The translations under genes and the position numbers were made by a program. From Rhizoclosmatium globosum (Eukaryota; Chytridiomycota; Chytridiomycetes; Chytridiales; Chytriomycetaceae), in NCBI GenBank assembly GCA_002104985.1, contig MCGO01000309.1:1-35997 (forward strand): a stretch of DNA of 35,997 nt, in the 5' to 3' direction. This document shows, piece after piece, positions 14,418 through 25,656 of the stretch. Numbering within the stretch: position 1 is the first letter of the stretch; each line of letters starts with the position of its first letter. The notes under the pieces are model-generated. The model had not been told where the DNA came from. It saw only the letters and a program-made list of their open reading frames with translations, and did not search any database.

Positions 14418-14468
14418 TAATAGCTCTTTGCACTCGCAGTATAGTGTCAATGTTCAGAAAGTAAGCAG

Positions 14469-14651
14469 GCCTTGATAGCTCAGTAAGAAGAGCGCCCACC
14501 TTTTAATTCAGTAACCCCTGCCAAGGACGGTGGTTCGAGTCCACCCCAGGCCCTTGAGTAGGCCTGGTAGCTCAGCTGGAAGAGCGTGGTAAAGAATGCC
14601 ACAGATTTAAAGCTCAGTGGGAGGTCGGTGGTGCGAGTCCACCTCAGGGCC
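14469..14651 (+). tRNA. tRNA-Lys(UUU), halves separated by 110-nt insert (cassette copy 1)
   Basis: The 5' half (14469-14506) and 3' half (14616-14651) form a full tRNA only together. The acceptor is GCCTTGA/TCAGGGC with C73, plus an extra G-1:C73 pair possible. The D arm is GCTC/GAGC, the anticodon stem CCCAC/GTGGG and the loop CTTTTAA, typical of Lys(UUU). The T arm is GGTGG-TGCGAGT-CCACC. The insert lies at 14506-14615, the canonical intron site between positions 37 and 38, and contains a second tRNA body in permuted order. The intron's AGATTTAAAG can pair with the anticodon loop, as in normal tRNA introns. Position 18 is A and position 55 is G instead of G18 and U55. A TTTT terminator follows at 14656-14659. 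A plain reading as two tandem tRNAs fails because neither has an anticodon stem. Confidence 0.6.
14519..14591 (+). ncRNA. Circularly permuted tRNA-like body nested in the tRNA-Lys insert (copy 1)
   Basis: The order is 3' half (14519-14553), 7-nt spacer, then 5' half (14561-14591). Rejoined, the halves pair perfectly: acceptor GGCCTGG/CCAGGCC with C73, D arm GCTC/GAGC with canonical GG in the loop, anticodon stem TGGTA/TGCCA, and T arm GGTGG-TTCGAGT-CCACC. This body is more canonical than the Lys body around it (G18, G19, U55 and a perfect B box GGTTCGAGTCC). In the primary transcript its acceptor would be a hairpin closed by the 7-nt spacer. The anticodon cannot be read: the bases next to the stem lack U33 and differ between the two copies. 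It may be a permuted tRNA gene, a tRNA-like RNA released from the intron, or an internal promoter module. Confidence 0.5.
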
Positions 14652-14655
14652 CTAA

Positions 14656-14659
14656 TTTT
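14656..14659 (+). terminator. RNA polymerase III terminator of cassette 1
   Basis: TTTT lies five bases after C73 of the Lys 3' half. There is no T run between the two tRNA-like units except the anticodon-loop TTTT itself, so the cassette is probably one transcript. Confidence 0.6.
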
Positions 14660-20900: not shown

Positions 20901-20952
20901 TTCTTACTTTTTTATTTACGTTATGATGCCAGTTTTGTAGTACGAGTCAATG

Positions 20953-21134
20953 GCCCTGATAGCTCAGTAAGAAGAGCACCCACCTTTTAATCCTGTACCC
21001 CTTGCCAAGGACGGTGGTTCGAGTCCACCCTAGGCCCGATTGCAGGCCTGGTAGCTCAGCTGGAAGAGCGTGGTACCATTGCAACAGATTTAAATCTCAG
21101 TGGGAGGGCGGTGGTGCGAGTCCACCTCGGGGCC
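20953..21134 (+). tRNA. tRNA-Lys(UUU), halves separated by 109-nt insert (cassette copy 2)
   Basis: The 5' half is 20953-20990 and the 3' half 21099-21134. The acceptor is GCCCTGA/TCGGGGC, the anticodon stem CCCAC/GTGGG, the loop CTTTTAA and the T arm GGTGG-TGCGAGT-CCACC. Relative to copy 1, the fourth pair changes from T-G to C-G and the fifth from T-A to T-G, so the cross-pairing is kept although both sides changed. Within unit 1 alone, the same changes would add an acceptor mismatch. G26 is A here and one variable-loop base differs. The insert at 20990-21098 again holds a permuted tRNA body. Expression in addition to copy 1 is plausible but not shown. Confidence 0.6.
21003..21075 (+). ncRNA. 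Circularly permuted tRNA-like body nested in the tRNA-Lys insert (copy 2)
   Basis: The 3' half is 21003-21037, the 7-nt spacer 21038-21044 and the 5' half 21045-21075. The 5' half is identical to copy 1 over 31 bases. The 3' half differs at one base of 35, turning an acceptor C-G pair into T-G. The spacer agrees at only 2 of 7 positions. D arm, T arm and the anticodon stem TGGTA/TGCCA are unchanged. The bases that would complete the anticodon loop differ from copy 1, so no anticodon can be assigned. Confidence 0.5.
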
Positions 21135-24014: not shown

Positions 24015-25656
24015 TCAAGCTGAAACAAAAGCAGCGTCTTTGTTTTCAGTCTTCTCGCCAGGAACTGAAAGAGAGGCTTCGGTAGTGCTCAAGTTTCCAA
24101 GTGGACCCATGTACCACTTTCGCGCATCGACATAGTACCAAATCATGGACAAGAACATTACGCCGACAGTAATTGGTCCGGCATAGTTCATGGTGTCTGT
24201 GGTGACTGGAACGGAAGGTGGCAAGACCAAGATGATTGACACAAATGCAGTCCAAACAACAGCAATGACGTTGATAATCAAACCAAGTGTGGGTCCCATA
24301 TTGAATGGCCCTGGAACAAACTGAATAGACTTGCGAATGTGACAGTAGTAAATCTTGTACAGAATGGTGATGGAGTACGACCAATCCATGGCAACAGTGG
24401 CGAGCGAGAAGATGGCATTGACAGCAGTAGCGGAAGCCAAGTTCAAGAGACCCATCAACATGGAAATGAAGATGATGATCCAGACAGAGTTAACAGGGAC
24501 TTGGAGCTTGGCGTTCATCTTGGCAAAGAATCCAGAGAAGGGAAGACCACCGTCACGAGCGAAAGCGAAAACCATGCGGGAGTTGGCTTGGAGAGCAGAG
24601 ATACCGATAGTGTTGGTAACAAGAATGATGAGAATCAACAAGACGATAGTTCCGTTCTTGCCGACGTTGTTGTAAAGAATCTCAACAGTGGACATTCCAG
24701 TTCCTCCTGGAAGAGCAATGCCGTTGGAGCAGGCAACGAAAGCAATGTTGAGGATGAGACCAAGGATTCCGGTTCCAGTCACGGCCGCGATGATGGAGAC
24801 TGGACCTCGGATAGAAGCGCGGTGGGTTTCCTCGGCAATATGTCCGGTGGCATCATAATCTGTCATGGTCCAGCAGACAGAGAGCAAACCAAACATGATA
24901 GCAAGCGCATTAGAGTTCCATCCGGTGGCATCAGTGACAGAGAAGAAAATGTCGTTGATAGGAAGTTTTTGGGATTCTGGAACAGTGGCGAACAGGGCAA
25001 CGATACAAGCAATGGCAGTAGCAAAGTTGATGAAGACAAAGTACTTGGTCATGACGGCCATGAACTTGGTAGAGGAGGTGTTGATGATTCCATGCAAAAC
25101 CAAAATGGCAACGTAGATTCCCACAATTGCACCTGGAGAAGCAACGTACGCTCCATCAGTGATGAGGTAAGCGGTGGCAGCAACCATTCTTGCACAAGCA
25201 AAGTCAGTGGAAGCGAATCCGGCAATTTGACCAAGAGTGTTCAACCATCCAACGACCCAGGCAACAATGGGAACCTGCTCCTTTGGAACAACAAACTTGG
25301 ATGCGGTGTAAAGACCTCCGGAAATGGGGTAGGCAGAGATGATTTCGGCGATGGAAAGAGCGATACTCATACAGAAGATGGATCCCACAAGCCATGTCCA
25401 GACCACAGAGGCGGGTCCGGCAGCCAACATGGGCGTATCGAAGGTCGATGGAATGGTGGCAGCAACTCCCATGATCGAGAAGGCAAAGGACAGGGTCGAG
25501 AGTGATCCGAACTCACGAAGGAATTCCTGTCTGTATCCCTGGATTGCTGCCAGTTAGCTTTCTCTCATGGTTAGAATATACACGTACCAAACGGGCGAGG
25601 TCTTGCTCATCGCTGTTGATGGATGCAGCCTTGACTGACTCTTCTTTCTGTGGCAT
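24015..25656 (-). CDS. Amino-acid/GABA permease, APC family (530 aa)
   Basis: Exon 1 is 25656-25588, the intron 25587-25539 and exon 2 is 25538-24015. The more distal acceptor (AATCCAG) keeps the frame and gives DLARLGYRQEFLREFGSLS, the family's usual N-terminal block. About twelve hydrophobic spans follow. Landmarks are AAGPASVVWTWLVGSIF, EIISAYPISGGLYTASKFV, DATGHIAEETHRASIRGP (the loop typical of the fungal GABA/choline/amino-acid permease subfamily), FAFARDGGLPFSGFFAK and WTAFVSIILVLP. The protein is a plasma-membrane or vacuolar proton-coupled importer. The substrate cannot be told from sequence: GABA, choline and polyamine carriers share this form. The frame is intact. Confidence 0.95.

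Follow-up and report, generated by a model that had tools for sequence, protein, structure and literature searches.

Circularly permuted tRNA genes, in which the 3′ half of the tRNA precedes the 5′ half, are known from red and green algae, a nucleomorph and Thermofilum (PMC3978253). The Soma review proposes that such genes originate from tandem duplicates that subsequently lose their outer halves; even before this loss, pairing between the 3′ half of the first tRNA and the 5′ half of the second would be possible in the joint transcript, and an artificial tandem transcript is cited that pairs in this way in vitro (PMC3978253). A tRNA can also harbor a structured RNA of a different kind: in an archaeal tRNA-Trp, the intron contains a box C/D RNA (PMC4090602). 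Finally, the bacterial YrlA RNA is described as a stem, on which Rsr sits, and a tRNA-like domain, which is a substrate for modification by DusA and TruB and also a binding site for PNPase (PMC8394870).

Here, we describe a 184-nt element in the chytrid Rhizoclosmatium globosum, located at positions 14468-14651 on the forward strand of a 35,997-nt stretch of DNA (hereafter the window), in which two tRNA-like units stand in tandem and pair with each other such that one tRNA body is nested in the other. The element resembles permuted tRNA genes in that the 3′ half of its inner body comes first, in that a short spacer closes the acceptor, and in that no T-run separates the halves; an origin by tandem duplication, as proposed for these genes, would suit it as well (PMC3978253). 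In contrast to these genes, the element keeps its outer halves, which are mutually paired, it has no conserved inner anticodon, and its host is a fungus, as an earlier note on this DNA had also stated. With the artificial tandem transcript, as summarized in the review, it shares the pairing of the first tRNA’s 3′ half with the second’s 5′ half; unlike that construct, in which one intron-containing tRNA is repeated, the element is part of a genome and no longer has anticodon stems within its individual units. It further shares with the archaeal tRNA-Trp a structured RNA in the anticodon loop, at the canonical place (PMC4090602). It differs from this and from other intron-bearing tRNA genes in that the nested RNA is itself a tRNA body and in that the 32:-3 anticodon-intron pair is missing. 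A survey of the open literature, covering mainly titles and the beginnings of abstracts, returned neither a permuted tRNA body inside another tRNA nor a permuted tRNA in a fungus. Likewise, a 32-base pattern of the element’s 5′ part gave no matches in viral contigs, and a 33-base pattern of its 3′ part gave none in prokaryote contigs.

Copies of the element and their conservation

A genome-wide DNA search (57 Mb, 420 contigs) yielded seven copies of the element, a number to be read as a lower bound, as search-tool counts of repeats are. The copies are distributed over three sites on three homologous contigs, C234 (the window), C47 and C416, and a second DNA search that used the most divergent copy as query (E ≤ 10) returned the identical set of seven. 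Site a holds the copy described above, C234a (C234:14468), together with C47a (C47:55142) and C416a (C416:24668). Site b is occupied on C416 only (C416b, C416:25439). Site c is again occupied on all three contigs (C234:20952, C47:61608 and C416:31995), and its copy on C234 is the second one in the window (C234c, 20952-21134, forward strand), reported by both the DNA searches and ARAGORN. The presence of the locus on three homologous contigs, with the extra copy b on C416 alone, could possibly reflect a ploidy of more than two, a hybrid genome or a duplication at this locus. Further along the window, a permease gene occupies positions 24015-25472 on the reverse strand.

Comparison of the homologous contigs shows no higher conservation of the element than of its flanks. 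When compared in 100-nt steps, the aligned flanks of C234 and C47 are 80-100% identical at sites a and c, and those of C234 and C416 are 88-100% identical at site c; at site a, the alignment of C234 with C416 is patchy, with large insertions. The copies C234c and C416c themselves are 94.5% identical, with flanks mostly at 95-100%. Four comparisons between paralogous sites gave identities of 80-90% for the element, 61-70% for the 120 nt upstream and 40-47% for the 120 nt downstream. The corresponding values for C234 and C416 at site a are 90%, 80% and 44%, and since the downstream flank of C416 aligns at only 44% even at this shared site, the flank contrast is partly one of insertion and deletion. 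Taken together, the seven copies amount to approximately four sequence groups. Another observation concerns the 8-nt loop that closes the inner acceptor (the cap loop), which begins with CGATTGC in C234c as it does in C47a at site a, unlike in the two other site-c copies. This suggests that gene conversion may have taken place between sites a and c.

Within the element, variability is unevenly distributed. Variable columns make up 24% and 9% of the two outer body parts and 15% and 16% of the two inner ones, compared with 64% in both linkers and 88% in the cap loop, and the anticodon block TTTTAAT varies in none of the seven copies. A TTTT run, predicted to act as a Pol III terminator (14656-14659, forward strand), lies 5 nt past the end of the element in six of the seven copies, against a background frequency of 0.07 for a 20-nt stretch to contain TTTT; C416a has none within 80 nt. 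Inside the element, TTTT occurs only as the anticodon run, and the terminal T-run follows the second unit only. The first 80 nt, in the first unit, contain what we take to be an A-box-like sequence (TAGCTCAGTAAGAAG, without G18) and a full B-box sequence (GGTTCGAGTCC). Judged by these letters, the box-like sequences and the T-run could fit a type-2 Pol III gene.

Pairing across the two units

In the window copy, all parts of which lie on the forward strand, the outer body is closed by an acceptor stem between GGCCTTGA (14468-14475) and TCAGGGCC (14644-14651), paired in all seven copies and in 100% of cells. Since this stem comprises 8 bp rather than 7, we place the start of the element at 14468. 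The outer D arm follows (14478-14493; loop AGTAAGAA, with position 18 changed and G19 kept), and then the anticodon stem, whose 5′ strand CCCAC (14495-14499) pairs with GTGGG (14617-14621) in 100% of cells, with one compensatory pair. ARAGORN places the anticodon TTT (Lys) at 14502-14504, within the invariant TTTTAAT block beside the variable linkers, and calls a 110-nt intron-like insert at 14506-14615, which contains the permuted inner body. This body opens with the 3′-half strand of its anticodon-stem equivalent, TGCCA (14519-14523), and continues with the T arm (14529-14545; loop TTCGAGT), which carries the B-box sequence, and with the 3′ acceptor strand CCAGGCC (14546-14552). Beyond the cap loop (14553-14560; seven of eight columns variable), the 5′ half consists of the acceptor strand GGCCTGG (14561-14567), a D arm with G18G19 (14570-14585) and the strand TGGTA (14587-14591). 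The inner acceptor strands pair in 98% of cells and the anticodon-stem equivalents in 100%. A 3′ linker (14592-14616), which includes the anticodon-pairing TTTAAA (14606-14611), leads back to the outer anticodon stem, and the outer T arm (14627-14643; loop TGCGAGT, with G at position 55) precedes the closing acceptor strand.

The nested pairing is real and exceeds chance. All four cross-unit stems of the window copy are perfect (8/8, 7/7, 5/5 and 5/5), its units have no anticodon stems of their own (0/5 and 1/5), and their own acceptors are mismatched (6/7 in each). The earlier note had read the locus in this manner, as one nested unit instead of two tRNAs, with an inner body in 3′-half/5′-half order; our results bear this out, and every stem that it named is present, except that the outer acceptor has 8 bp and not 7. 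Over the seven copies, 99.4% of 172 cells are paired in the cross-unit stems versus 52.1% of 165 cells in the own-unit (tandem) stems, where no double-sided change occurs. The anticodon stems are paired in 2.9% and 21.9% of cells within units and in 100% across them. In C416b, one pair of the inner acceptor is disrupted. The cross-unit inner anticodon stem has zero mismatches in all seven copies, with one gapped pair in the three site-c copies, where the letters TGGTA are present one column over and the pair was treated as a gap. Shifting the cross-unit stems by 1-3 columns lowers the pairing to 26-52%.

Three cross-unit pairs show double-sided changes that retain pairing, one in each of three stems: the outer acceptor (U-A/U-G/C-G), the outer anticodon stem (C-G/U-A) and the inner anticodon stem (A-U/G-C, the change to G-C being that of C416b). 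Among 500 shuffles, none matches the percentage paired and three match the count of double-sided pairs; further pair types in the cross-unit stems are unremarkable, with 232 of the 500 shuffles reaching their count. Each double-sided change is seen in a single copy, either C416a or C416b. With the copies falling into about four sequence groups, each compensatory change therefore rests on one copy, and the covariation support for the cross-unit stems rests on few lineages. As a control, we cross-paired ordinary tRNAs of this genome, using 18 of 31 distinct ones (the other 13 were dropped by the parser or the stem filter). The mean was 12.8 of 24 pairs over 306 ordered combinations, and only two combinations reached at least 23 of 24, both between variants of tRNA-Lys(CUU).

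Structure prediction points in the same direction, with some qualifications. RNAalifold recovers the nested fold without an input structure, and in the alignment fold the pairing between anticodon and linker is largely retained across copies. For the single RNA of the window copy, whose folding the earlier note had proposed as a check, the minimum-energy fold (-70.5 kcal/mol, z -2.68) departs from the nested arrangement at the inner anticodon stem alone, in place of which a local hairpin of the second unit (14586-14602) is favored; this hairpin is complete (6/6) in only one of the seven copies. The minimum-energy folds of the single copies contain 17-44 of the 46-49 nested pairs (17-36 in the six copies other than the window one) and lie 5.7-12.4 kcal/mol below the nested structure as drawn, presumably because the likeness of the two bodies allows alternative pairings. 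The tandem cloverleaves have energies of -21.8 to -33.2 kcal/mol and the nested structure has energies of -59.8 to -65.2 kcal/mol, which is better by about 29-39 kcal/mol. The nested structure also beats the best fold without cross-unit pairs in all seven copies, by 1.6 (C416b) to 13.7 kcal/mol.

The outer and inner tRNA bodies

When introns of up to 200 nt are allowed, ARAGORN reads six of the seven whole copies as tRNA-Lys(ttt) with a 109-110-nt insert at the canonical place; in whole C416b it reads another anticodon (tta). Once the outer parts are joined, all seven copies are called tRNA-Lys(ttt). An intron-free ARAGORN scan and the Rfam tRNA model at its gathering cut-off both miss the element in the window. 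The first unit of the window copy on its own scores 25.4 bits with the Rfam model versus a cut-off of 29, and that of C47a is called tRNA-Gly(ccc) by intron-free ARAGORN, with an oddly placed anticodon. The outer body of the window copy agrees with the genome’s tRNA-Lys(UUU) at 55 of 76 columns, compared with 46 of 73 for tRNA-Lys(CUU). A covariance model (R1), scored on 21 loci and the window, gives 200.7-225.7 bits for the elements; for ordinary tRNAs, the scores are 45.8 and 42.3 bits at two tRNA-Lys(UUU) loci and 42.1 bits at the best tRNA-Lys(CUU) locus. Elsewhere in the genome, tRNA-Lys(CUU) genes recur about 1.6 kb apart in the manner of tandem arrays (C418:38783-49951 and C301:144184-160759), and Ala, Leu, Val and Gly tRNAs also lie around the first of those on C418 (L061).

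We then considered whether the outer body could serve in decoding. The outer anticodon, U33 and A37 are invariant in the seven copies. At the elbow, positions 19 and 56 are kept throughout; position 18 has changed to A or T and position 55 to G in all seven copies, with the loss of the 18-55 pair in every copy. A pair between anticodon-loop position 32 and intron position -3 is the rule for eukaryotic tRNA introns. This pair occurs in none of the seven outer loops, and a 32:-4 pair occurs in two. Read by hand from the letters, the tRNA-Thr of the window does have C32-G(-3). This gene, a tRNA-Thr(AGU) with a 14-nt intron (1563-1654), appears as “tRNA-???” in the intron-free scan. In C416b, the anticodon-pairing block lies 2 nt closer to the stem. 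Of the intron-containing tRNA-Lys(UUU) that the earlier note had seen here, the Lys-like body and the canonical place of the insert (six of seven copies by ARAGORN) hold up, and the missing 32:-3 pair and the outer positions 18 and 55 tell against it. The note had also named a silent locus combined with a normal tRNA-Lys(UUU) gene elsewhere as evidence against its reading; as to the latter, the genome contains eight ordinary, intronless tRNA-Lys(UUU) genes, and the element as the only source of this tRNA is rejected. Because of these eight genes, the changes at 18 and 55 and the missing 32:-3 pair, the outer body is probably not needed for decoding and perhaps not fit for it. The strictly kept anticodon is the best argument to the contrary, hinting that the outer body may still meet lysyl-tRNA synthetase or be spliced.

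For the inner body, reordering into a colinear tRNA gives ARAGORN anticodons of Leu(taa), Val(aac), Asn(att) (three times), Ser(tga) and Thr(tgt) over the seven copies, in an anticodon loop of 30-odd nt. In its elbow, the twelve letters checked are complete in six of the seven copies, and C416b has T at 56. The inner acceptor is closed by the variable cap loop, so that there is no free 3′ end unless the RNA is cut. The earlier note had taken this body for a permuted tRNA, which is not supported in a functional sense, given the lack of a constant anticodon, the 30-odd-nt loop and the missing 32:-3 pair.

The best Rfam match of the insert is YrlA (RF02553; 14499-14616, 41.8 bits over the full model, cut-off 69). 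This is the best score among the copies, none of which reaches the cut-off. Within the genome, matches to RF02553 at E ≤ 1 are confined to the seven elements, among the 46 of 1328 candidates that were scored. The same search also gives weak matches in 12 of the 14 prokaryotes used as controls, never above the cut-off, and a weak match is therefore no proof of kinship. A search for TROVE/Ro60/Rsr gave no matches at E ≤ 1 in the genome, where short exons could hide such a gene, and its control was positive in one of 14 genomes; a vault-protein search gave no matches in the genome and none in the controls either. The element shares with YrlA the order of T arm, looped acceptor and D arm atop a closing stem. 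It differs in scoring below the curated cut-off, in having a closing part that is itself a tRNA body, and in the lack of a Ro60/Rsr match in the genome. We read the likeness as convergence, because both RNAs are permuted tRNA bodies. Two RtcB RNA ligase genes are encoded in the genome (C142:17099-18193 and C371:236571-237602), and an ordinary tRNA-Lys(UUU) gene lies at a distance of about 3 kb from each. The ligase usually associated with fungi is a different one, Trl1; in other organisms, RtcB can circularise tRNA introns.

Possible origin and function

In the window copy, the two units agree at 22 of 27 alignment columns in their 5′ halves and at 27 of 31 in their 3′ halves, so that tandem duplication of one tRNA would be the simplest origin. 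We propose that a tRNA-Lys(UUU)-related gene was duplicated in tandem and that cross-unit anticodon stems then came to replace the own-unit ones. Transcription would start from the A-box-like and full B-box sequences in the first 80 nt and would end at the TTTT. In the resulting RNA, the outer body may protect and trim the ends, and the inner body may offer a tRNA elbow to tRNA-binding proteins, much as bacterial YrlA does; its acceptor being closed by a loop, it would have no free 3′ end to charge. Our main reading, to which we assign a probability of roughly one half, is thus a single noncoding RNA, likely made by Pol III, that acts as a double tRNA mimic derived from a tandem tRNA duplication and not as a second decoding tRNA. 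With similar confidence, the product is predicted to be one noncoding RNA made of two tRNA heads joined via their anticodon stems.

As the leading alternative, the locus might be an intron-bearing tRNA-Lys(UUU) gene, in which the endonuclease removes the 109-110-nt insert, the exons give tRNA-Lys, and the insert is freed as a tRNA-like RNA, perhaps circularised by RtcB. The Lys(ttt) calls with a canonical insert (six of seven whole copies, seven of seven when joined), the invariance of anticodon, U33 and A37, the largely retained pairing of anticodon and linker, and the presence of RtcB genes are all consistent with this. Nevertheless, we consider it doubtful: the 32:-3 pair is absent from all copies although the tRNA-Thr of the window has it, C416b departs in both its spacing and its tta call, positions 18 and 55 of the outer elbow are changed in every copy, and such a gene would be dispensable next to eight intronless ones. 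It is also conceivable, but unlikely, that the RNA is an “avatar” pre-tRNA, spliced to tRNA-Lys with release of a permuted tRNA-like circle, and as such a living intermediate on the way from tandem tRNA duplications to permuted genes. A true circularly permuted gene inside a tRNA-Lys intron, with both parts maturing to decoding tRNAs, appears very improbable. Five different inner anticodons over seven copies, the 30-odd-nt loop and the outer loop without its 32:-3 pair argue against it; the 3′-half/5′-half order, the inner stems that span the units, the complete inner elbow of six copies and the encoded RtcB argue in its favor.

Two further explanations do without nesting. If the locus were a decaying pair of ordinary tandem tRNA genes, its cross-pairing would be a leftover of their shared origin, and given how alike the units are (22/27 and 27/31 columns), some cross-pairing is indeed expected; the Rfam match of the first unit below the cut-off and the tRNA-Gly(ccc) call in C47a also agree with this idea. 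What makes it a slim chance is that pairing in the anticodon stems amounts to 100% of cells across units but to only 2.9% and 21.9% within them, that compensatory changes occur in the cross-unit stems, and that a T-run follows the second unit only. Two separate tandem tRNAs are disfavored on the grounds of the same unpaired own-unit anticodon stems. A tRNA-derived SINE or other mobile repeat would account for the tRNA-like start, the A- and B-box-like sequences and the several copies. It can hardly be reconciled, however, with two DNA searches of the 57-Mb genome that end in the same seven copies (a lower bound) at three sites, nor with the flanks that the copies of sites a and c share between homologous contigs, and we regard it as far-fetched.

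Returning to the double tRNA mimic, the best reading of the sequence is that the element corresponds, in nature, to the intermediate from which permuted tRNA genes have been proposed to derive. The chytrid element would be such a tandem, with its cross-pairings fixed and its outer halves retained. As these outer halves are present, mutually paired and covarying, a living genome could offer the opportunity to study this intermediate. Should the RNA prove to be a tRNA mimic, it would be a eukaryotic parallel to bacterial YrlA.
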